Below are positions 6,719 through 36,380 of a DNA stretch of 64,000 nucleotides, piece by piece; position 1 is the first letter of the stretch; every line of letters starts with the position of its first letter. A program made the translations under genes and the position numbers. The notes below the pieces were generated by a model. That model was not told the DNA's origin. It saw nothing but the letters and a program-made list of their open reading frames with translations, and searched no databases. Source of the DNA: Corallococcus coralloides DSM 2259 (lineage in GTDB: Bacteria > Myxococcota > Myxococcia > Myxococcales > Myxococcaceae); the NCBI RefSeq assembly GCF_000255295.1, contig NC_017030.1, positions 620,001 through 684,000 of the forward strand. The letters are read 5' to 3'.

Positions 6719-7147
6719 ATGTACCCAAGGCGCCCTGTCGTGGTGAAGCCCCAGTCCGGTCTCCAGTCCGATATCAACGTCACGCCCCTGGTGGACGTGG
6801 TCCTTGTCCTGTTGATCATCTTCATGGTCGTGACCCCGCTCATGCGCGGCGAACTCCGGCTCCAGATCCCTCCATCCGGAGAGGTCGAATACCCACCGTC
6901 GAACGAGGGGGCTCCGGGCCTCGTGCGCCTCTCCGCGGACGGGAGGCTCTTCCTGGAGGGAGAACCCGTGAGTGAAGCCGATTACGTGCCCCGCCTGCGG
7001 GCCTTCCTCGCGGCCCGCCCCAGGGGCGAGCGTGAACTGTTCTTCCAGCCGGACGCGCAAGCCTCCTACGCACGACTCATCCAGGCCCTCGACGGGGCGA
7101 AGGCCGCCGGCGCGGAGGCGATGGGCATCGGCGTGGACCCGCCCTGA
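6719..7147 (+). CDS. ExbD/TolR family biopolymer transport protein (second copy)
   Basis: 142-aa paralogue of the preceding gene, starting 11 bp after it with GAGGAGG upstream of the ATG, so the two are co-transcribed. The membrane segment is almost identical (INVTPLVDVVLVLLIIFMVVTP), while the periplasmic domain has diverged. The proton-relay Asp is kept. Two different ExbD/TolR chains could form a heterodimer in one proton-driven motor, an arrangement used by several myxobacterial Agl/Gls-type motors, but the matching ExbB/TolQ subunit must be encoded elsewhere. Role (TonB-like energy transfer, outer-membrane maintenance or other) cannot be decided from the sequence. Confidence 0.88.
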   Translation: MYPRRPVVVKPQSGLQSDINVTPLVDVVLVLLIIFMVVTPLMRGELRLQIPPSGEVEYPPSNEGAPGLVRLSADGRLFLEGEPVSEADYVPRLRAFLAARPRGERELFFQPDAQASYARLIQALDGAKAAGAEAMGIGVDPP

Positions 7148-7221
7148 GCACCTGGAGCCTGTCCGACACTCGCCGCGAAAAGCCCGTGGCCAGCCCGCAC
7201 CCGCTGTCTTAAGTCACGGCC

Positions 7222-7950
7222 ATGTCACGAGGGCCATGGCGGTGGGTGTCGGGTTGGGACGTGATGGTGACGCGGCCCCTGGGGCTGCTCTTGCTCGTGG
7301 TCGCGTGCGTCCTGGGCTTCGTCGTCCTGTCCGACGAAGTCCATGAAGGCGACACGCAGGACATCGACGAGCGCATCGTCCGCTCCCTGCGCCGTGACGA
7401 AGACCCCGCGCTCCCCCGAGGCCCGTGGTGGCTCTCGGAGACCGCTCGCGACGTGACGTCCCTGGGCGGCTTCCCCGTCCTGGCGCTCCTCACCGCGGCC
7501 GTGTGCGGCTTCCTGCTGGTGGCCCGCCGCTACCGCACCAGCCTCTTCGTGCTGTCCTCCATCGTGGGCGGGTGGATCCTCAACGCGGCGCTCAAGAACC
7601 TGTTCCACCGCCCGCGCCCCTCGGTGGTGCCCCACCTCACCGAGACCATGTCCACCAGCTTCCCCAGCGGCCACGCCATGCTGTCCGCCATCACCTACCT
7701 CACGCTGGGCGCGCTCCTGGCCCAGTTCGCCGAGCACCGCCGCGTGAAGGTCTACCTCCTCGCCGTGGCCCTGGTGCTCTCCGTCCTCGTGGGCTGCACC
7801 CGCGTGTACCTGGGCGTGCACTACCCCACGGACGTGCTCGGCGGCTGGGTGGCCGGGCTCGCGTGGGCCCTGTTCGTCACCGTCGCCGCCCGCACCGTGC
7901 GCCGCCGCAGCCCCGCCCTGCGGGAAGAGGCCCAGCGCCCCGTGGAATGA
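7222..7950 (+). CDS. PAP2-family membrane phosphatase
   Basis: 242-aa integral membrane protein with about six hydrophobic helices and all three PAP2 signature motifs: KNLFHRPRP (residues ~125-133), PSGH (148-151) and RVYLGVHYPTDVLGG (194-208). His151 and His200 are the expected catalytic pair, with Arg194 helping bind phosphate. Family members dephosphorylate lipid phosphates such as phosphatidic acid, PGP or undecaprenyl pyrophosphate on the outer face of the membrane; the exact substrate is unknown. The hydrophilic segment 38-78 between helices 1 and 2 is longer than in minimal PAP2 proteins. It stands upstream of the deacetylase gene in the same direction, 115 bp away. Confidence 0.9.
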   Translation: MSRGPWRWVSGWDVMVTRPLGLLLLVVACVLGFVVLSDEVHEGDTQDIDERIVRSLRRDEDPALPRGPWWLSETARDVTSLGGFPVLALLTAAVCGFLLVARRYRTSLFVLSSIVGGWILNAALKNLFHRPRPSVVPHLTETMSTSFPSGHAMLSAITYLTLGALLAQFAEHRRVKVYLLAVALVLSVLVGCTRVYLGVHYPTDVLGGWVAGLAWALFVTVAARTVRRRSPALREEAQRPVE

Positions 7951-8065
7951 GCCTTGCGCCCACGGCCCCCTCGCGTGATGAAGGGGCCACCACCCATTTC
8001 GACCGGCTCCCCGTGACCCTCGTCCCCGTGAACATCCGCCACTCCCTGCCACCCGCGAGGCGCGG

Positions 8066-9844
<1,779 letters not shown>

Positions 9845-27655: not shown

Positions 27656-29674
27656 GTGAGTGACGAGCGTCCGGACGCGCTGCTCAAGAGCGCACTCGAA
27701 AAGATCGTCTACTTCGAGGCCCGTGCGCAGCAGTTGCATGGCGAGCTGGCGTCCGCGCGCGACGAGCTTTCGCACCTGAAGGAGGACCTGGCGGCGGGGC
27801 ACCAGCGTGAGCTGGACCTGCGCCGGGAGGTGGCGTCGCTGGAGGTGAAGAGCGCCCGCGCGCAGGCCGAGCGCGAGGAGCTGTCCCGGCTCAACCACGC
27901 GCTGCGGCTGGAGCGCGACCAGCTGATGGCGAAGCTGCTGGACGCGAGCCGGATCCACTCGTCCGGACAGGCGCGCGCCATGGCGGAGGACGATGCCGAC
28001 GAGCTGGGGTTCGACCTGGCGTCGTTCATCTCCCAGCTGCGCAGCGAGGTGATCCTCCGCGGGGACGTGCCCGCGATGCGCGCGCCCTTCAACGGGCCGG
28101 CGGTGCCGCTGAAGGCCTCCGAGCCGAGCGTGCCGTGGACGGAGCGTCCCGCGCCGGCCATTCCGCCCCGGGCTTCGACGGTGGCGTCAGGCGCGATGGA
28201 TTCGGGGCTGTCGCCGGTGGCGCGCGAGGCGCAGCGGCTGCAGAGCGAAGGCCGGCTGCGGGTGAGCCCGGAGCAGATGGCGGAGCTGTCCGGCCACGCG
28301 GGCAGCACCACGGACGAGACGCTGTTCGGATTCTCCGTGCGGGAGCTGTCGGCGGCGGACGCGGCGGCGCGGGTGCGGGCGGCGGAGCGGCTGAAGGCGC
28401 TGGCGCATCCGGCGGCGGCGCCCGCGTTGGCGGCGGCGCTGCACGCGGAGACGGACGCGACGGCGCAGGTGGCGCTGGTGCAGGCGTTCGCGGGGCTGTG
28501 CCGGGAGGAGGGCGCGTCGGTGGTGTCGCCGCTCCTGTCGTCGCCGGTGCCGGAGGTGCGCATCGCGGCGTTGAAGGCGCTGCTGGTGCTGGCGCCGAAG
28601 GACGCGGCGCCGCACCTGGCGCAGGCGATGAAGGATTCGGACCGGTCGGTGCGCCGGCGCGCGTCGCTGTTGGCCCTGGGGTTGGAGGGGGAGACGGCGC
28701 GGCGGCTGGGCGAGGACGCGATCCACGACACGGATCCGGAGGTCCGCGCGCTGGCGGCGCTGGCGCTGGGCGCGGGCCGGGGAGAGAACGCCCGGACGCT
28801 GCTGTTGGGCGCGCTGGACGACGGCGAGGCGCGCGTGCGCAAGGCGGCGGCGCAGAGCCTGTCGCGCATCCTGGGGCACGACGTGTCCGCGGTGGTCGCG
28901 CTGGATGATGCGCACCGGCGCCGGGAGATCCGCCGGCTGGCGACGCTGCCCGTGAAGCCCGTGCGCGCGACGCTGGAAGTGAAGCCAGTGCCCGCGGCCC
29001 CCGTGGTCGCGGAGGTGGCGCAGCCCGTGGCGGTGCAGGGCACTCCTGTGCAGCCGGTGGCCGTGAGTGCCGCGCCGCAGGTGAGCGCCCCGGTCGCGGT
29101 GCCACAGGCCCTCCCTTCGATTCCCGAGCACACCGCCGTGCCGGTGTCGCTCGCGGACGTCGCCGCGAACACCTCGCAGTGGACCGCTACGCCCATGGCC
29201 GCCCCCGCGCTCGCGGTCGCCGCCGTGGGCGCGGCCCGCTCCGCACCCGTCGCGATGCACGGTGCGGCTCCCGCGCCTGCCCGGGTCGTGAACGGTGGGC
29301 CCGTGTCCTTCGCTTCGGGCCCCGCCGCGCCGCCGTCGCGCCCGGTGGCTCCTGTTCCTCCCGCCGCGCCCGCGCAGCCCGCCGTGCGGCGGACGCCCGT
29401 GCAGGCCGCGCTGGTCGCCATGGGCGCGCCTCCTCCCGCCCGGGCTCCGGCACCTTCCGCCGCGCCGCCGGTTCCTCCCAAGCGCGGGCCCTCTCCCGTG
29501 GAAGCGCTGTGTGGGGCGATGTTGCAGGAGGTGCGGGTCGCTGTCCGAGGACGCTCGCTCGCCGAGCTGACGTCCGGGCTGTCCGCTCCGGCGGAACTCG
29601 CCCAGGAGGCTGTTGCCCTGCTGGTGGCCCGAGGGGCCATCGTGCGAAGGGGGCACAAATACTTCGCTGCTTGA
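27656..29674 (+). CDS. pomY: PomY-like cell-division positioning protein (coiled coil + HEAT repeats)
   Basis: 672 aa from a GTG start (MSDERPDALLKSALEKIVYFE), close to the ~680 aa of M. xanthus PomY. Domains: coiled coil ~10-105; linker; HEAT-like helical repeats ~230-420 (AAPALAAALHAETDATAQVALVQA, PEVRIAALKALLVLAPKD, DSDRSVRRRASLLALGLEG, VRKAAAQSLSRILG); a Pro/Ala/Val-rich disordered part ~430-600; and a C-terminal ~65-aa folded piece (VEALCGAMLQEVRVAVRGRS). In M. xanthus PomY bridges PomX and PomZ, activates PomZ ATPase and condenses at the division site. Followed by pomZ and pomX. Called from domain order plus neighbours; direct identity with PomY was not computed. Confidence 0.88.
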   Translation: MSDERPDALLKSALEKIVYFEARAQQLHGELASARDELSHLKEDLAAGHQRELDLRREVASLEVKSARAQAEREELSRLNHALRLERDQLMAKLLDASRIHSSGQARAMAEDDADELGFDLASFISQLRSEVILRGDVPAMRAPFNGPAVPLKASEPSVPWTERPAPAIPPRASTVASGAMDSGLSPVAREAQRLQSEGRLRVSPEQMAELSGHAGSTTDETLFGFSVRELSAADAAARVRAAERLKALAHPAAAPALAAALHAETDATAQVALVQAFAGLCREEGASVVSPLLSSPVPEVRIAALKALLVLAPKDAAPHLAQAMKDSDRSVRRRASLLALGLEGETARRLGEDAIHDTDPEVRALAALALGAGRGENARTLLLGALDDGEARVRKAAAQSLSRILGHDVSAVVALDDAHRRREIRRLATLPVKPVRATLEVKPVPAAPVVAEVAQPVAVQGTPVQPVAVSAAPQVSAPVAVPQALPSIPEHTAVPVSLADVAANTSQWTATPMAAPALAVAAVGAARSAPVAMHGAAPAPARVVNGGPVSFASGPAAPPSRPVAPVPPAAPAQPAVRRTPVQAALVAMGAPPPARAPAPSAAPPVPPKRGPSPVEALCGAMLQEVRVAVRGRSLAELTSGLSAPAELAQEAVALLVARGAIVRRGHKYFAA

Positions 29675-29723
29675 GGCAAGGTGGGACTCGCCCAGGCCTC
29701 ACACGTCATCCGAAGGGTCGTTC

Positions 29724-30686
29724 ATGGAAGCGCCGACGTACAGCTCGAAGCAGGTAGCCGAGATGCTCGGCGTGACTCCGAAGTCCATCCCCGCGGAGCT
29801 GCGCAAGGACGCCTACGGCCCGGAAGACGTGTGGGAGCTGCGCACGACGCTCAACAAGTTCCCGCCCACCGCGGGCCTGCGCAAACAGCTCTTCCTCAAC
29901 TTCAAGGGCGGCACCGGCAAGACGTCCCTGTCCACGTCCTACGCGTGGCGCCTGGCGGAGCTGGGCTACGCCGTCCTCCTCATCGACCTGGACAGCCAGG
30001 GCCACGCCACCAAGTGCCTGGGCTACGAGGGCGAGGACTTCGAGAAGACGCTGCTGGACGTGCTCGTCCGCAAGACGCCGCTCGCGCAGGTGGTGCAGAA
30101 GTCCACCCTGCCCAACCTGGACTTCATCCCGTCCAACCTGAGCATGTCCACGGTGGACCTGGCGCTGATGCCCATGGCCGGCCGTGAGTTCAAGCTGCGC
30201 AACGCGCTCAAGGACGTGGAGGCGCAGTACGACTTCATCGTCTTCGACGCGCCTCCGTCCTTCGGCCTGCTCAACCTCAACGCGCTGATGGCCGCGAACG
30301 ACCTGTTCGTGCCGGTGCTCGCGGACTTCCTGTCCTTCCACGGCCTCAAGCTGCTGTTCGAAACGGTGCAGAGCCTGGAGGAGGACCTGAACCACGTGCT
30401 GGACCACGTGTTCATCGTGGTGAACTCCTTCAACGCCACCTTCAAGCTGGCGAAGGAGGCGCTGGAGGCGCTCCAGACGCACTACCCCGAGTACCTGCTG
30501 CCCACCATCATCCGGCAGTGCACCAAGTTCGCGCAGGCCTCCAGCGAGGGCCGCCCGGTGTTCGTGGCGGACCCCACGTCCAAGGGCGCCAACGACATCC
30601 AGGCCATGCTGGACAACGTGCTGCCGCGCCTGGTGGCCGCGCACGCCGCGGCGGTGAAGGCCGGCACCGCGACGAAAGCCGGCTGA
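29724..30686 (+). CDS. pomZ: PomZ, ParA/MinD-type ATPase for division-site positioning
   Basis: 320 aa. After a ~50-aa N-terminal extension that looks like a small HTH (SSKQVAEMLGVTPKSI), the ATPase has a deviant Walker A KGGTGKT (61-67), Walker A' LIDLDSQGHATK and FIVFDAPPSF. The residues I recall from M. xanthus PomZ work fall at the same numbers here: G62 and K66 (nucleotide binding), D90 (hydrolysis) and K268 (DNA binding, in RQCTKFA). PomZ dimerises on ATP, binds the nucleoid, and moves the PomX/PomY cluster to midcell, where the FtsZ ring forms. GAAGGG lies before the ATG; the gene starts 49 bp after pomY and ends 9 bp before pomX. Confidence 0.95.
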   Translation: MEAPTYSSKQVAEMLGVTPKSIPAELRKDAYGPEDVWELRTTLNKFPPTAGLRKQLFLNFKGGTGKTSLSTSYAWRLAELGYAVLLIDLDSQGHATKCLGYEGEDFEKTLLDVLVRKTPLAQVVQKSTLPNLDFIPSNLSMSTVDLALMPMAGREFKLRNALKDVEAQYDFIVFDAPPSFGLLNLNALMAANDLFVPVLADFLSFHGLKLLFETVQSLEEDLNHVLDHVFIVVNSFNATFKLAKEALEALQTHYPEYLLPTIIRQCTKFAQASSEGRPVFVADPTSKGANDIQAMLDNVLPRLVAAHAAAVKAGTATKAG

Positions 30687-30695
30687 GATTTCCCC

Positions 30696-32468
30696 ATGAA
30701 GAAAGCCTTCGAACAGAACGTGTCCCGCGCGAAGCCGCGCCTCCGCCTGGGGGCGCTGACGGGTGCCCTCGACCCGGCCGACCCCACGGGGACCGCCGCC
30801 GCCACGCCGGAGCCCGCCGCGCCGGAAGCGCCTGCGCCCGTCGCGGAGTCGCCGGACCTGTCCTCCGAGGTGCGCTCGCGCATCGAGCGCCGCGCCGGCC
30901 CGCGTCCCACCGCCGCCGAGGCGATGGAGGCCGCGCTGAACGCCCCGCCCAGGCACGCCGCGCCGCCCCCCGCCGCGCAGGGGCTGCCGGCGGTGACGGC
31001 GCCCTCGTTCTCGCCGGTGTCCCACGCGCTGTCCGCGCTGGTGTCCCCGGAGGCCGCGCGCGTGGAGGAGGAAGCGCCGCCCGCGCCGTGGCTGGATCCG
31101 GATTCGCAGGAGACCGCGCCCGGCTGGAACGTGGCGCAGGAGTCCGCGCCGGAAGAGTCCGTCTGGGACGCGGACGCGGTGCCGCCGGTGTCGCACCGCG
31201 AGGTGGCGGAAGCCGTCGCCGCGTCCGCGTGGAACGTGTCCGTCGCGCAGCAGCGGGAGTCCGTGGTCGAGGCCTTCGGACGGGAGCCCCTGGGCGCCGA
31301 GCCGACGCCCACGCACGTGGAGCCACCTCCGCCCACCGCCGCGCGCTGGGATGCGCTGACGGCGCGTCCGGAAGCCGCCACGCACGTGGACCCGACGCGC
31401 GTGGCACCCCTGGCCCACTCCGTGACGCACACCGAAGCGCTGCGCGCCGAAGTGGCCCGCGTGGAGCCCCCCGCCGCGACGCGCGCGGAGGCTGCTGCGC
31501 CGGTGCCTCCCCAGGCTGAAGCCCCTCGCGCCGACACGCGGGGCGCTCCGGTCACCTTCGCGTCGCCGCCCCCGGCGATGGCGCAGGCGGAAGCCCCCCG
31601 GGGCATGCCGGCCACCTTCGCGGGCCCGCCTCCCGGAGTACAGTTCGATGGACGGATGGGCGTTCAGGCCCTCCGCATGCCTTCCGAGGCCGAGCCCATG
31701 ACGACGTACGCTGCCGTCCAGGCCTCCACCGTCACCACCACCGAGACGGTGGCCCGACAGGAAGCCGCGCCCGCCCCCGTCGAGGTGCAGACGCCCGCGC
31801 CTCCCCGCGAGGACGACTCCGAATCCCGCCGTGAGAAGCTCAAGGCCCGCCTCAAGGCCGTGCGCGAGAACCCGCGCCCGGAGCCGCTGCCCGCCACCGT
31901 CGCGGAAGCCGGCCAGCGCGCCGTGGAGCGCATCACCCACCTCCAGGCGGAGCTCACCAAGGTCAAGGCGGCCAACCTCACGCTCACCCAGGACCTCGAA
32001 GTGGCCCGCCGCCAGGCGGAGAAGGCCACCGAGGAGGCCCGCCTGCGCATGGACGAGGCCCGCCGCCTGTCCGCGGAGATGGAGGGCCGCGTGAAGCTGC
32101 TCGCCGACCTGGAGCGCGAGCTGGCCTCCCTGGAAGGCGAGCGCGACGAAGCGCTCCTCTCCCTCCAGGAGTCCCGCCAGGCCCTCCAGGCCGCCGCGAA
32201 GGAGCACGAAGCGCTGGAGCAGGTCGTGACCAAGGGCAAGCTGGCCCTGGCCGACAGCCTGGCGGAAGAGGAGCGCCTCGCCGTGGAGCTGGAAGGCGCC
32301 AAGGACGAGTCCGCCTCCCTGCGCCGCGCCGTGGAGACGCTCCAGGGCGAGCGCGACGTGCTGGCCCAGCAGGTCGCGTCCCTCACCGCCGAGCGCGCCG
32401 AGCTGCTGGAGGCGCGCAAGGCCCTGGAGTCCGTGCACCGCGCCTTGAGCCAGGCCACGGTGCGCTGA
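30696..32468 (+). CDS. pomX: PomX, scaffold of the PomXYZ division-positioning complex
   Basis: 590 aa. The first 22 residues (MKKAFEQNVSRAKPRLRLG...) match the PomX N-terminal peptide that activates PomZ ATPase; Lys13 and Arg15, which I recall as the essential residues, are present. Residues ~25-370 are Pro/Ala/Glu-rich and probably disordered, with repeated PEAPAPVA/PPAMAQAEAPR-like pieces. Residues ~375-590 form a long coiled coil (KLKARLKAVREN, LQAELTKVKAANLTLTQDLE, ..ERELASLEGERDEALLSL). M. xanthus PomX is ~404 aa as I recall, so the linker here is ~190 aa longer while both ends are kept. It self-assembles into the scaffold that recruits PomY and binds PomZ. Confidence 0.92.
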   Translation: MKKAFEQNVSRAKPRLRLGALTGALDPADPTGTAAATPEPAAPEAPAPVAESPDLSSEVRSRIERRAGPRPTAAEAMEAALNAPPRHAAPPPAAQGLPAVTAPSFSPVSHALSALVSPEAARVEEEAPPAPWLDPDSQETAPGWNVAQESAPEESVWDADAVPPVSHREVAEAVAASAWNVSVAQQRESVVEAFGREPLGAEPTPTHVEPPPPTAARWDALTARPEAATHVDPTRVAPLAHSVTHTEALRAEVARVEPPAATRAEAAAPVPPQAEAPRADTRGAPVTFASPPPAMAQAEAPRGMPATFAGPPPGVQFDGRMGVQALRMPSEAEPMTTYAAVQASTVTTTETVARQEAAPAPVEVQTPAPPREDDSESRREKLKARLKAVRENPRPEPLPATVAEAGQRAVERITHLQAELTKVKAANLTLTQDLEVARRQAEKATEEARLRMDEARRLSAEMEGRVKLLADLERELASLEGERDEALLSLQESRQALQAAAKEHEALEQVVTKGKLALADSLAEEERLAVELEGAKDESASLRRAVETLQGERDVLAQQVASLTAERAELLEARKALESVHRALSQATVR

Positions 32469-32480
32469 AAGGCCCTTCGC

Positions 32481-33470
32481 CTACTTCGCGTCCTTCGCCA
32501 CGCCCGTGGGCTTCTTCCCGGGCCCCACGGTGGCGGTGAAGGACGCGGGCAGGGCCGGGCGCTGGAGCGACGCGACGTCCACCCGCGCGAGCGGATCCGC
32601 GTTCTCCCGCCGCGCCTGGAGCAGGTCGGCGATCCGCTCCTGGCGCTCCTCCTTCTTCGGGTGGTTCTCGAAGAAGCCGCCGCCCCCGGACGTCCGCTCG
32701 AGCAGGCGCGAGAACTCCCTCGGGTCGTAGCCCGCGGACAGCAGCAGCTCCACCGCGAGCGCGTCCGCCGCCAGCTCCTCGTCCTTGCGGTTGCCCTTGC
32801 CGAAGGCGTCCACGGTGCCTTCGACCATCTCCCCCATCAGCCCCGTGTCCGAGTCCAGGTCCAGCCGGCCGTCCACCAGGCTCGCGTTCTTCAGCTTCGA
32901 GGCCACCGTCGACACCACGGCGCCCGTCACCGCGGCGCCCTTGCACGTGCTCACCTTCACGGAGACGTACTGGTGCAGCGCGTGCTTGAGCACGACGTGG
33001 GCAATCTCATGCGCCAGCACGCCCGCGAGCTGCGCCTCGTTCTCCACGCCCTGGAGCAGCCCGTGCGTGACGAACACGTAGCCCGCGGGCGCGGACAGGG
33101 CGTTGAAGCGCTTCGCGTCCTTGAGCACGCCGAACGTCCAGCGCAGCTCCGGCCGGGGGGACTGCATCGCCAGGTTGCGGCCCACCGTGTTGACGTAGGT
33201 GTTCAGCTTCTCCTCCGCCGCGCCCGACAGCATCAGCCCGCCGCCCTGCTGCGCCCAGTGGATGGCCAGCGCGCTGCCCAGCGCGTACTCCTCCTGGATG
33301 GCCGGCTCCACCTTCAGCTTGTCGCAGGACTGCACCTTCTCCGCCGCGGCCGCCACCCGGTTCGCGTCCTCGCCCAGGTTCGCGGCCCTCAGGCCCTTCG
33401 CCACCTGGGTACAGGACGTGAGGCTCAGCCCCAGGCCCGCCGCCACCAGCATCCCCATGCGCGAGCGCAT
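32481..33470 (-). CDS. M48-family zinc metalloprotease lipoprotein
   Basis: 329 aa. Lipoprotein signal with Cys20 in LSLTSC. The zinc motif HEIAH is at 154-158 (LAGVLAHEIAHVVLKHAL), and EELAADALAVELL (~220-232) supplies the third ligand Glu. This is the BepA/LoiP-type periplasmic M48 architecture: such proteases degrade or repair misassembled outer-membrane proteins. Its start overlaps the stop of the SH3 gene by one base (TGATG), so translation is coupled. C-terminal ~40 residues are Lys/Pro-rich. It converges on pomX with a 12-bp gap. Substrate not known. Confidence 0.88.
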   Translation of the reverse strand: MRSRMGMLVAAGLGLSLTSCTQVAKGLRAANLGEDANRVAAAAEKVQSCDKLKVEPAIQEEYALGSALAIHWAQQGGGLMLSGAAEEKLNTYVNTVGRNLAMQSPRPELRWTFGVLKDAKRFNALSAPAGYVFVTHGLLQGVENEAQLAGVLAHEIAHVVLKHALHQYVSVKVSTCKGAAVTGAVVSTVASKLKNASLVDGRLDLDSDTGLMGEMVEGTVDAFGKGNRKDEELAADALAVELLLSAGYDPREFSRLLERTSGGGGFFENHPKKEERQERIADLLQARRENADPLARVDVASLQRPALPASFTATVGPGKKPTGVAKDAK

Positions 33471-34033
33471 CACTTCACCGCCTTCTTCGCCTGGGGGCCC
33501 ACCTTCGTGTCGGGCGCCACCACCGGGAACAGCCCGGCCTGCTTCACGTGCGCGTCGATTTCCACGGGCGTGACCTTGAGGGCCAGGCCCTCCAGCTTCT
33601 TGATTTGCGCCACCGCGTCCGCGTAGCCGCCGCCCTTCTCCTTGCCGTACTTCTCCGCGCCCGGGCTCAGCGCCTTCACCGCCGCGCCGCTGGACACGAA
33701 GGCGGCAGGGTCGATGGTGCGCGTCTTGCCGTCCTTGGACACCAGCTCCATGTCGGGCGGCTTCGTGGACAGGTTCGTCTGGAACACGAAGCCGGCCTTG
33801 CCTCCGGGTTCCGTCACCTGGTGCCACTGCGCGTTCTTCGGGTCCGCGCCCTTCCAGGTCACCTGCTGTCCGGGCTGGAGCACCGCCACCACGTCCGCCG
33901 TGGGCACCGAACTCTTGAGCACGCGCGTGTTGCGAGCCTTCACATAGAGCTTCTCGTCCTTCTTCACCGCCCATGCGGCCGTCGCCGGCACTCCCAGCGC
34001 CAGCAGCACGACGCCCCAGGTCCATCGTCTCAT
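33470..34033 (-). CDS. Exported SH3-like domain protein
   Basis: 187 aa. Signal peptide at 1-22 (TWGVVLLALGVPATAAWA). Residues ~25-90 fit a bacterial SH3 fold: KLYVKARNTRVLKSSVPTADVVAVLQPGQQVTWKGAD, then WHQVTEPGGKAGFVFQTNLST. SH3_3 domains typically bind cell-wall or metal ligands in exported proteins. The rest is an uncharacterised Lys-rich region. GGGGAGG lies six bases before ATG 34033, which decides this start over an adjacent ATG at 34039. It is translationally coupled to the M48 gene downstream and follows the cyclase gene by 28 bp, so the three form an operon. Confidence 0.8.
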   Translation of the reverse strand: MRRWTWGVVLLALGVPATAAWAVKKDEKLYVKARNTRVLKSSVPTADVVAVLQPGQQVTWKGADPKNAQWHQVTEPGGKAGFVFQTNLSTKPPDMELVSKDGKTRTIDPAAFVSSGAAVKALSPGAEKYGKEKGGGYADAVAQIKKLEGLALKVTPVEIDAHVKQAGLFPVVAPDTKVGPQAKKAVK

Positions 34034-34061
34034 CGTCATCCTCCCCAAACCTGATACGCCG

Positions 34062-36380
34062 TCACTTCTCCAGATTCGCGACGCCATCGAACTTCTCCGG
34101 AGGCGTCTCCAGATATTCGCGGCAGCGCTCCAGCAGCTTCGCGGTGGGCCCGTCCTCGGGTGACCGGGCGGCCTCCGCCTCCAGCACCGCCGCGGCCTCC
34201 GCGAAGCGGGCCTCGCGGTACAGCCCCAGGGCTGTGTGGTAGCGCGCCACCGTGTGCCGGGTGGACGCGTCCAGCTGACCCTTGAGCGCGAGCAGCTCGT
34301 ACACCGTGACGGCCTCCGTCTTGCCCGCCACCCGCACCCGGTCCAGCTCGCGCACCTCGATGTGCTCCTTCGCCAGCTCGTACGTGCGCGGGCCAATCAT
34401 GATGACCGACCCGTAGGCCTTGTTCGCGCCCTCCAGGCGCGCGGCCAGGTTCATGCCGTCGCCAATGGCCGTGTAGCTGAAGAGCTGGTCGCTGCCGAAG
34501 TTGCCCACGAAGTTCACCGCGCTGTTCACGCCGATGCGCGTGTACACGTCCGGGAACCCCTTCTCGCGGAAGTCCACGCGCAGCGCGTCCACCGCCGCCT
34601 TCGCCGCCAGGGCGCCCCGGCACGCGCGCACGGCGTGGTCCTCCTGGGCCATGGGCGCGCCGAAGAGGCACACCACCGCGTCGCCAATGTACTTGTCCAG
34701 GCACCCGCCCTCGCGCAGCAGCGCTCCGCTCACCGCCGTGAGGTACGTGTTGAGGATGCGCACCAGCTGGCGCGGGTCCTCCTTGAAGCGCTCGCTGAAG
34801 GTGGAGAAGCCGCGGATGTCGCTGAAGAACGCGGTGATCTCCTTGTTCTCCCCATCCAGGCGCGGCAGCTGCCGCGAGCGGATCATCTGCTCCACCAGCT
34901 TCGGCTCCATGAAGCGGTGGAACGCCTGCCGGATGAACTGCGTCTCGCGGTTGGCCACCAGGTGGTTGAACGCCAGCGCGGCCACACTCGCGCCCACGCC
35001 CGCCAGCGCGTGCATCGCCATCCGCACGTGCGTGTGGGATGTCTTGAGCAGCAGGCCCGTGAGCACGTGCAGCCCAAGCACCAGCGCCACCGGCCAGGCC
35101 ACCTCCAGCGGTGTCCAGCGCACCGTCATCAGCAGCACCGCGGACACCAGCGCCACGAAGAACGTCAGGCCCAGGTCCACGGCCAGGGGGGCGCGGGTGA
35201 TGAACGTTCCCGACAGCAGCGTGTCCACCACCGTGGCCTGCTTCACCATTCCAGGCTCCGTGGCGGAGAAGGGCGTGGCCTTGATGTCATTGAGGCCCAC
35301 CGCCGTGCCGCCGATGATGACGACCTTGTCCTGGAACGTGCCCGCGGCCACCTCCAGGTCTTCGCCCTGGGACCGGTGGATCCAGTCGTTCAGCACGGCG
35401 AAGAGGCGCACCGCCACGAAGCGTTCTTCCAGCGAACCGCCGTAGTCCAGCGCGGCGCTCCCGTCGTCGTCCACGTGCCACGTGCGCTCGCCCAGGCGGA
35501 GGGTGCGGCCGGAGAGCGTGACCTCCTTCGCTCCCAGCAGGTCCGCCATCATGCGCACTGGCAGCGTCACGTAGGTGTTGGTGCCGTCCGTGTACGCGAA
35601 GTGCGTGCGGCGCATGGAGCCATCCCCATCCGCCTCCATGTCCACCAGCCCGACCCCGTTCACCGCGCCCAACAGTGCGGGAGTCGGAGGCACCGGGTAG
35701 TGCTTTGGCGCAAGCGCTTCCAACGGACGCCCATCCGTCCGACTGGCGGGGAAGGCGAGCGCCCGCGCCAGGGCCTCGGGCGTCAGCACGGGCGTGGCCG
35801 GGGCTTTCGCGTCCTCGAACTCCTCGGGGAAGGAGTCGTCCTCCGGAGGGCTGGTGGCAGGAGCGGCCTCTGGAGCCGTCAGCGGTACGGGGGCCTGGAA
35901 GTCCGCGCGAGCCAGCTGGTCCGCCGTGCCGCTGGTCGACATGCCCACGTAGAAGGGGAGGCCTGTCTCACGCAACGCCTGCGCGAAGCCCAGGTCAGCG
36001 GACTCGTCGGCTGTCCGCTCGTCCATCACCGCGTCGAACAGCACGGCCCTGGCTCCCGCGGCCTTCAGCTCCTGCGCGATACGCGCCCACAGCGTGCGTG
36101 TGTACGGCCAGTTGCCGAAGTTGAGCTGAAGCTGCGGACTCTGGCTGATTTTGTCGATGGAGTACTGGTCGATGACCACCACGACCACCTCCGTGGACTT
36201 CCCCCGACCGCCAGTGAACCGGACCAGCGCATCGTCGTAGGCGATGTGCTCCGTGCTTTCGAGGCCCCCACCCAGCTCGCACGCCCACGCGACGAGTGTG
36301 GCCGCCAGCGCGATCCCCAGCATCACGCGTCCGTGATGGCGCCAGCGCTCCTGGATCATCTTCCACGTCTCACCCGCCAC
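34062..36380 (-). CDS. CHASE2-domain class III adenylate/guanylate cyclase
   Basis: 772 aa. N-terminal TM helix (GIALAATLVAWACELGG), then a periplasmic CHASE2 sensor ~45-400 (YDDALVRFTGG, VVVVVIDQYSIDKI, VLFDAVMDERTADES, FQDKVVIIGGTAVG), three TM helices ~410-495 and a class III cyclase domain ~525-700. Metal ligands are in FFSDIRGFST and DKYIGDAVVCLFGAP; the catalytic stretch is YTAIGDGMNLAARLEGANK. A purine-specifying residue comparison was not possible by eye, so cAMP and cGMP both remain possible. Residues ~700-772 look like a TPR-like helical tail. First gene of an operon with the SH3 protein and M48 protease, suggesting that envelope state feeds into cyclic-nucleotide signalling. Confidence 0.9.
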   Translation of the reverse strand: MAGETWKMIQERWRHHGRVMLGIALAATLVAWACELGGGLESTEHIAYDDALVRFTGGRGKSTEVVVVVIDQYSIDKISQSPQLQLNFGNWPYTRTLWARIAQELKAAGARAVLFDAVMDERTADESADLGFAQALRETGLPFYVGMSTSGTADQLARADFQAPVPLTAPEAAPATSPPEDDSFPEEFEDAKAPATPVLTPEALARALAFPASRTDGRPLEALAPKHYPVPPTPALLGAVNGVGLVDMEADGDGSMRRTHFAYTDGTNTYVTLPVRMMADLLGAKEVTLSGRTLRLGERTWHVDDDGSAALDYGGSLEERFVAVRLFAVLNDWIHRSQGEDLEVAAGTFQDKVVIIGGTAVGLNDIKATPFSATEPGMVKQATVVDTLLSGTFITRAPLAVDLGLTFFVALVSAVLLMTVRWTPLEVAWPVALVLGLHVLTGLLLKTSHTHVRMAMHALAGVGASVAALAFNHLVANRETQFIRQAFHRFMEPKLVEQMIRSRQLPRLDGENKEITAFFSDIRGFSTFSERFKEDPRQLVRILNTYLTAVSGALLREGGCLDKYIGDAVVCLFGAPMAQEDHAVRACRGALAAKAAVDALRVDFREKGFPDVYTRIGVNSAVNFVGNFGSDQLFSYTAIGDGMNLAARLEGANKAYGSVIMIGPRTYELAKEHIEVRELDRVRVAGKTEAVTVYELLALKGQLDASTRHTVARYHTALGLYREARFAEAAAVLEAEAARSPEDGPTAKLLERCREYLETPPEKFDGVANLEK

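Follow-up and report, generated by a model that had tools for sequence, protein, structure and literature searches.

The pomY-pomZ-pomX locus of Corallococcus coralloides: a modular PomX with a genus-specific linker, and a possibly older ATPase-plus-peptide module

Here, we describe the pomY-pomZ-pomX locus of Corallococcus coralloides DSM 2259, located in a 64,000-nucleotide stretch of contig NC_017030.1 (positions 620,001 to 684,000; hereafter, the window). The locus is the already known Pom system, here in the sister genus of Myxococcus, and very probably is an operon that works as in Myxococcus xanthus. Comparison of its products with their relatives exposes PomX as a modular protein, with a fixed activating peptide and a coiled coil of fixed length joined by a tether that spans 119-400 residues in the genera compared; the difference in PomX length is a genus trait and comes with a constrained new element. 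Furthermore, synteny and motif statistics support an older module, the PomZ-class ATPase plus the activating peptide, with different partners elsewhere; this core is probably older than the myxobacterial division system and turns up again with other partners in at least three other phyla, a view held tentatively, at slightly below an even chance.

An earlier note on this DNA, prepared from the sequence alone, had recognized a complete pomY-pomZ-pomX trio in that order, and the open reading frames (ORFs) at those positions (Table 1) are indeed orthologous to M. xanthus PomXYZ. Strain AM003 (locus L017), in which the order of the pom genes is the same, served as the reference for all comparisons with M. 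xanthus. Alignment upheld orthology for all three proteins: PomZ is identical at 287 of 319 positions (90%) and PomY at 458 of 652 aligned residues (70%; residues 1-130 match the AM003 ORF at 3.3e-50), and both ends of PomX are kept, as the note had claimed, with residues 1-23 identical and 187 of the last 208 residues identical (90%). The closest PomZ matches come from Corallococcus strains (99-100% identity), and the PomZ gene was detected in 15 of 16 Corallococcus genomes. Genome-wide searches of the 10.08-Mb genome, a single contig of 10,080,619 bp, gave one PomX match and one match at E <= 1e-50 to a PomZ profile (A1) built from 14 PomZ sequences, and no second pomXYZ locus was found anywhere in it; neither outcome that the note had named in advance as fatal to it, a dissimilar PomX start or PomZ or a true pomXYZ locus elsewhere, was thus observed. 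Pfam and NCBIfam yielded no Pom-specific model for PomX, PomY or PomZ.

The residues on which the function of PomZ depends stand where the earlier note had placed them, with G, K, D and K at positions 62, 66, 90 and 268. The substitution G62V lowers PomZ dimerisation, D90A lowers hydrolysis and K268E lowers DNA binding (PMC13170346), and K66 is, judged by its position, the Walker-A lysine; no mention of a K66Q mutant was found in the available text of PMC7993993 or PMC13170346. The AlphaFold2 model of PomZ has a mean predicted local distance difference test score (pLDDT) of 84.4, and the closest solved structures are those of Soj/ParA. PomX, as proposed, starts with a peptide that bears K13 and R15.

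In M. xanthus, PomX filaments form one scaffold, FtsZ is enriched by the PomY that condenses on it, and the PomX-PomY assembly is tethered to the nucleoid by PomZ (PMC10307791, PMC11725790). Residues 1-22 of PomX (the N-terminal peptide, NPEP) and 496-682 of PomY activate PomZ at separate predicted sites (PMC7993993, PMC13170346), and K13 and R15 of PomX are required both for activation and for midcell positioning (PMC7993993). Because the functional residues known from M. xanthus are present, we infer the same mechanism in Corallococcus: the PomX coiled coils would build a single scaffold per cell, PomY would condense on it, and ATP-bound PomZ dimers would tether this cluster to the nucleoid; stimulation of PomZ hydrolysis by the N-terminal peptide of PomX and the C-terminal region of PomY would then let the cluster move to midcell, where PomY would promote FtsZ polymerisation.

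The PomX linker was measured from residue 22/23 to a fixed anchor in front of the constant C-terminal block, the length of which is 208 residues in all 35 PomX compared. It comprises 360 amino acids in the window and 174 in M. xanthus, a difference of 186 where the earlier note had estimated about 190. A survey across genera, from which incomplete PomX (L009/L184, L016/L190, L019/L195) and duplicates were omitted, gave linkers of 292-400 residues for Corallococcus (13 distinct PomX), 232 for one PomX of the Citreicoccus group, 162-210 at 13 Myxococcus/Pyxidicoccus loci (one recorded as Comamonas) and 119-166 in eight of the Archangium type. Because the long linker is common to the 13 Corallococcus proteins, the 590-amino-acid PomX is typical of the genus rather than a peculiarity of the strain. 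Length variation of the N-terminal region among PomX homologues has already been published (PMC7993993). The record titled "Comamonas sp. KCTC 72670" (L021) carries a Myxococcus-like pom locus and probably is a mislabelled or contaminated assembly. The longest PomX-like protein measured, 835 amino acids with the peptide FEGALPRRKPRTRL, belongs to a member of the phylum beyond the class (L123).

An AlphaFold2 model of PomX, built from 28 PomX sequences, places helices at residues 2-11, 55-67, 73-82, 108-115, 167-193, 247-253, 375-391 and 402-589, and 286 of the 590 residues, nearly all within the linker, have pLDDT < 50. A second conserved motif, at residues 53-82, was found by a simple pattern in 26 of 27 PomX, M. 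xanthus included (L072 was missed), with L55 and A80 invariant across the 28 rows; the M. xanthus counterpart occupies residues 49-76. Within the stretch that is expanded relative to M. xanthus, the segment REVAEAVAASAW (residues 163-188) is present in 13/13 Corallococcus PomX and in 0/5 others tested. The ratio of nonsynonymous to synonymous substitution rates (dN/dS) among the 13 Corallococcus PomX is 0.084 for this segment, next to 0.049 for the NPEP and 0.104 for the coiled coil, and rises to 0.501 (139-162) and 0.816 (189-230) on its flanks; the 53-82 motif is less constrained within the genus (0.364). Since a genus-specific segment is under strong purifying selection, the extra length in Corallococcus appears to be more than a spacer: the tether gained a constrained helical element that may, with about equal chances either way, be an additional binding site.

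The ATPase of the window belongs to a class that reaches beyond the myxobacteria. In the window's phylum, 133 of 195 genomes, counted from the listed matches, have a PomZ-profile match of at least 267 bits, three of them outside the class, and the next-best match scores 209.7 bits, hence a clear gap. With phylum labels following record titles, the class was also found in 24 of 395 genomes of the Thermodesulfobacteriota (the phylum of the Syntrophaceae locus L077; two seed genomes included), four of 64 of the Latescibacterota (the phylum of L088; two seed genomes included) and six of 200 of the Gemmatimonadota (the phylum of L071; one seed genome included), the matches in these three samples scoring 299-522 bits. 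That several independent genomes per phylum share the class argues against binning error. In a tree of 55 cluster representatives of the class and six ParA-type proteins, the 55 rows group together, apart from ParA (support 95/95), and the Thermodesulfobacteriota and Latescibacterota rows (97/89) are separate from those of Myxococcota and Gemmatimonadota (91/88); long branches among the ParA rows (L090, L001) drew a warning from the tree program. In the open-access literature searched, its figures and supplements not being covered, none of the papers listed announces Pom proteins outside the myxobacteria in its title or the opening of its abstract; no paper combined PomX with Syntrophaceae, and of those listed for PomZ together with Gemmatimonad, Desulfobacter, Deltaproteobacteria or Latescibacter none contained PomZ. 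PomZ-class candidates on viral contigs were rejected: the best segments of the 19 matches are 27-43% identical, and these were taken as ordinary ParA-like proteins. A Latescibacterota member compared with plasmid and phage collections found nothing above 36% identity among the best 20 of at least 5000 matches and the best 20 of 162.

The class is linked to the activating peptide by the gene downstream. The 166 loci were clustered at 85% identity into 55 clusters, which were used for counts because many loci come from the same or near-identical genomes, and L033, with no DNA downstream of the ATPase, was dropped beforehand (165 loci). A loose test, requiring a start codon within -60 to +500 nt and then F-x-x-[NSA]-[VILA] within 14 residues, was positive downstream of the ATPase at 161/165 loci (54/55 clusters) and in 203/3709 other ORFs. 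Of the misses, L073, the 55th cluster, has its peptide gene about 1.9 kb downstream, L084 and L142, from the same genome, have the peptide 12 residues further in, and L016 has no detected PomX start. A strict test, which adds a basic residue at position 12 or 13 and P14, recovered 160 of 161 partners; it was passed by 16 of 3413 control ORFs but by no neighbour of another ParA-like gene (0/9), although the neighbour at L001 has the loose motif without P14; this ParA control leaves out L003 (48 nt downstream) and L006 and L007 (no P-loop ORF found). Across the 55 clusters, F5 and P14 are each present in 55, V9 in 53 and N8 in 46; the conservation of F5 and, loosely, of N8 and V9 is partly by construction because these positions were part of the search pattern, which P14 was not. 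An adjoining NPEP-bearing protein was found in 21/21 outside clusters. The position of K13 is basic in four of five Gemmatimonadota clusters and that of R15 in all five; position 13 is F (4/4) or M (8/8) in the two groups of Thermodesulfobacteriota, and at position 15 Latescibacterota have N, S or D and the Syntrophaceae group has N.

A HEAT-repeat gene lies upstream of the ATPase in 47 of 52 clusters by phmmer and Pfam (L038, L050 and L163, in which the upstream gene is cut off, are left out of the count); the five misses are L087, L088, L174, L175 and L177, and neither search found a HEAT gene in the four Latescibacterota clusters. A single-sequence search, which can miss distant forms, matched the coiled coil of PomY and its C-terminal gD domain in Myxococcota rows only. 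At three Latescibacterota loci (L087, L088, L175), the peptide starts a protein with matches to DnaA_N and to HTH_36/Phage_rep_O-like domains, the latter below or just above the cut-off. Two related proteins flank the ATPase of L175 (33-1478 and from 2678), both with N-terminal MADNFDSNVA.RKP, and the upstream one matches DnaA_N. In the Syntrophaceae locus L077, the ATPase is followed by two consecutive proteins of 110 and 271 amino acids (6944-8154), each with a near-N-terminal PomX-type peptide, and two such neighbours, of 110 and 271-276 residues, recur at several Syntrophaceae-type loci. Of the partners measured, 19 have charged Pro/Gly-free stretches and heptad scores of 0.72-1.00, compared with 0.60-0.65 in the two from Latescibacterota; the measure is rough and home-made, had no control and does not amount to a coiled-coil prediction.

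Several observations run counter to the readings given above and have to be set beside two rival explanations of the linker. As regards the locus itself, one Corallococcus genome (G081, in 1490 contigs) has no PomZ match and the locus L016, from a metagenome-assembled genome (MAG), has no detected PomX start; an assembly gap is possible in both. Within the linker, the stretch 287-322, shared with Myxococcus, is also constrained (dN/dS 0.099), the inserted helix is modelled with moderate confidence (block means of 63-80 at residues 161-190 in the 28-row alignment), and all the dN/dS values come from short segments of related sequences. The expansion could be neutral drift of a disordered, Ala/Pro-rich tether whose length and content have no role: linkers range widely in length both across genera and within Corallococcus, residues 189-230 are weakly constrained, and the region is described as likely unstructured in M. 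xanthus (PMC7993993). However, residues 163-188 are kept throughout the Corallococcus set, are predicted to be helical and have a dN/dS near those of the NPEP and the coiled coil, so that we consider drift unlikely. A copy of the PomY alpha5 helix acquired by the insert, in which PVSHALSAL (PomX 107-115) would correspond to PVQAALVAM, was rejected as highly improbable. This is the top match to alpha5 in the window's linker (5/9 identical), and PV[SA]HALSALVSP occurs in 10 of the 13 Corallococcus PomX as well as in the only complete one from the Citreicoccus group, but composition-matched shuffled linkers score equally well in 10-14% of cases for the nine Corallococcus rows with PVSHALSAL (p about 0.11 for the window's linker) and in 53-54% for the two others tested, and a better score is found outside Corallococcus, in L136 (PVAAAMAPM, p 0.025, one of 18 tested).

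The reading of the outside cassettes meets similar objections. K13 and R15 are not universal (basic in 42/55 and 44/55 clusters); PomZ residues that contact the NPEP are not significantly better conserved than other core residues in distant relatives (permutation p 0.09-0.19; the raw means of 0.79 for the pocket vs 0.69 for other core residues in 21 distant clusters are not significant by permutation, and those in six ParA are 0.42 vs 0.49); Q271 and E275 of PomZ are kept in about one-fifth to one-quarter of distant relatives; and the single-sequence search gave no gD or PomY coiled-coil match in any outside cluster. The cassettes might be ordinary partition or other cargo-positioning systems, in which short basic peptides at the N-terminus came to look like the PomX NPEP convergently, without common descent. 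ParB, MinE and ParG all have basic N-terminal activating peptides (PMC7993993), the Latescibacterota peptide sits on a DnaA_N and HTH_36/Phage_rep_O-like protein with no HEAT gene found, and the pocket, as noted, is not specially conserved. Against this, the ATPases form one group, distinct from ParA by both score and tree, P14, absent from the search pattern, is invariant across the clusters alongside F5 and the near-invariant V9, which were in it, and the HEAT gene upstream recurs in most clusters; convergence is thus rather improbable. Because most of the outside cassettes lack the basic K13/R15 and none has a PomY coiled-coil or gD match, they are not filed as PomXYZ; they may work like PomXYZ, and the lack of those PomY matches suggests that their function may not be division.

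The most far-reaching interpretation, to which we give somewhat less than even odds as a whole, is that PomZ belongs to a ParA-type family, originally with a MerR-like N-terminus, whose defining feature is the peptide of its partner, F-x-x-[N/S]-V-x-x-x-x-P, in which a basic residue directly precedes the proline. This peptide would be a portable handle for varied cargo, borne by a coiled-coil scaffold in the myxobacteria and their relatives, by a replication initiator in Latescibacterota and by two small proteins in Syntrophaceae. The division system would have arisen from such a cassette by gaining the PomY coiled coil and gD, with alpha5 only in the Myxococcus/Corallococcus group, and F5, V9 and P14 would represent the ancestral activating core, of which K13 and R15 are a later refinement. 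The published alanine scan of the NPEP took charged or hydrophilic residues (PMC7993993), so F5, V9 and P14 fall outside it; in the printed AlphaFold3 model, F5 and V9, among others, face PomZ (PMC13170346).

The PomZ N-terminal extension may bear on the MerR-like origin. In the relatives L088 and L175 it scores as Pfam MerR_1, and in L084 marginally (21.7 bits vs a cut-off of 21.6); Pfam gave no MerR_1 match in the window's PomZ or in the relative L171, and MerR is not mentioned in the one PomZ paper examined for that term. The extension is possibly a decayed or shrunken MerR-like helix-turn-helix. In PomY, alpha5 is the predicted PomZ-binding helix (PMC13170346, from which the gD fold name is also taken); by sequence, it is present in the Myxococcus/Corallococcus/Citreicoccus group and was found at none of 15 gD-signature loci, some from the same genome, of other genera. 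PomY of the Archangium/Hyalangium type (L029, L031, L136, L140, L199 and others) bears the gD signature without a PVQAALVAM-like alpha5, and may therefore activate PomZ in another way.

Table 1. Genes and predicted features of the pom locus (window coordinates)
Feature	Coordinates	Strand	Description
pomY	27656..29674	+	672 aa, GTG start
PomY N-terminal coiled-coil helix, ~residues 1-106	27656..27973	+	limits borrowed from the M. xanthus model (PMC13170346)
PomY HEAT-repeat region, ~residues 196-415	28241..28900	+	Pfam HEAT_2 57.1 bits, HEAT 54.5 bits, both above cut-off
PomY alpha5 PVQAALVAM, residues 581-589	29396..29422	+	predicted PomZ-binding helix; identical in M. xanthus AM003
PomY gD domain (winged-helix-like), at the C-terminus, residues 614-672	29495..29671	+	aligned with M. 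xanthus; phmmer 2.9e-25
pomZ	29724..30686	+	320 aa, ATG start, ParA-type ATPase with G62 and K66 in Walker A, D90 and the DNA-contact residue K268
PomZ N-terminal extension, ~50 residues	29724..29873	+	block pLDDT 82-91; predicted helices 8-15, 33-43
pomX	30696..32468	+	590 aa, ATG start, putative scaffold and ATPase-activating protein
PomX NPEP, residues 1-22	30696..30761	+	putative ATPase-activating peptide with F5, V9, K13, P14, R15
PomX second conserved motif, residues 53-82	30852..30941	+	predicted helical hairpin 55-67/73-82; block pLDDT 69-74
PomX lineage-specific linker expansion, ~residues 83-286	30942..31553	+	from alignment to M. xanthus PomX and the survey across genera
Conserved segment in expansion, residues 163-188	31182..31259	+	predicted helix 167-193
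PomX C-terminal block of constant length (208 residues), coiled-coil scaffold	31842..32465	+	single predicted helix 402-589

Downstream of pomX, the minus strand (32481-36380) holds ORFs that resemble, by eye only, an M48-type metalloprotease (HEIAH), an SH3-like protein and a CHASE2/adenylate-cyclase-like protein. An Archangiaceae MAG has a second, weaker ParA-like gene directly downstream of pomX (L041, 8522-9466).

The window locus faithfully reproduces, in a second genus, a system that is already known, and its value is comparative. The comparison separates the fixed parts of PomX, peptide and coiled coil, from a tether that varies about threefold in length and from a new part kept in Corallococcus. 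Any contribution of PomX beyond residue 22 to PomZ activation was left undecided by PMC7993993; the 22-mer activates less strongly than PomX-N, and the motif kept at residues 53-82 is a specific candidate for such a contribution. The outside cassettes, if alike in working, would offer an origin for the Pom system and would let nature's own variants show how new cargo is passed to a ParA-type ATPase.

In relation to M. xanthus PomXYZ, the window locus is alike in gene order, single copy, the catalytic and DNA-contact residues of PomZ, the NPEP and coiled coil of PomX, and the coiled coil, HEAT, alpha5 and gD regions of PomY; it differs in the longer PomX linker with its Corallococcus-specific constrained helix. 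ParA/Soj-ParB systems share the ATPase fold and activation by a short basic N-terminal peptide (PMC7993993), but the PomZ class is set off by its profile scores (at least 267 bits, next matches at most 210), its N-terminal extension and a partner that is a coiled-coil scaffold, not ParB. Among plasmid proteins, the best listed matches of the Latescibacterota member, a Manganitrophus plasmid ParA and an alphaproteobacterial RepA, cover 96-98% of its length but are only 31-33% identical to it, and the annotated ParB partner of the Manganitrophus plasmid lacks the NPEP motif. For MinC, a comparison of PomZ-positive (0/24) and PomZ-negative (2/20) genomes in the Thermodesulfobacteriota sample was uninformative on functional replacement. 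MinCDE, in which a ParA/MinD ATPase and a peptide-type activator likewise control the division site (PMC7993993), differs from PomXYZ, which acts positively on FtsZ (PMC10307791) and in the window's genome occurs without any MinC_C match.

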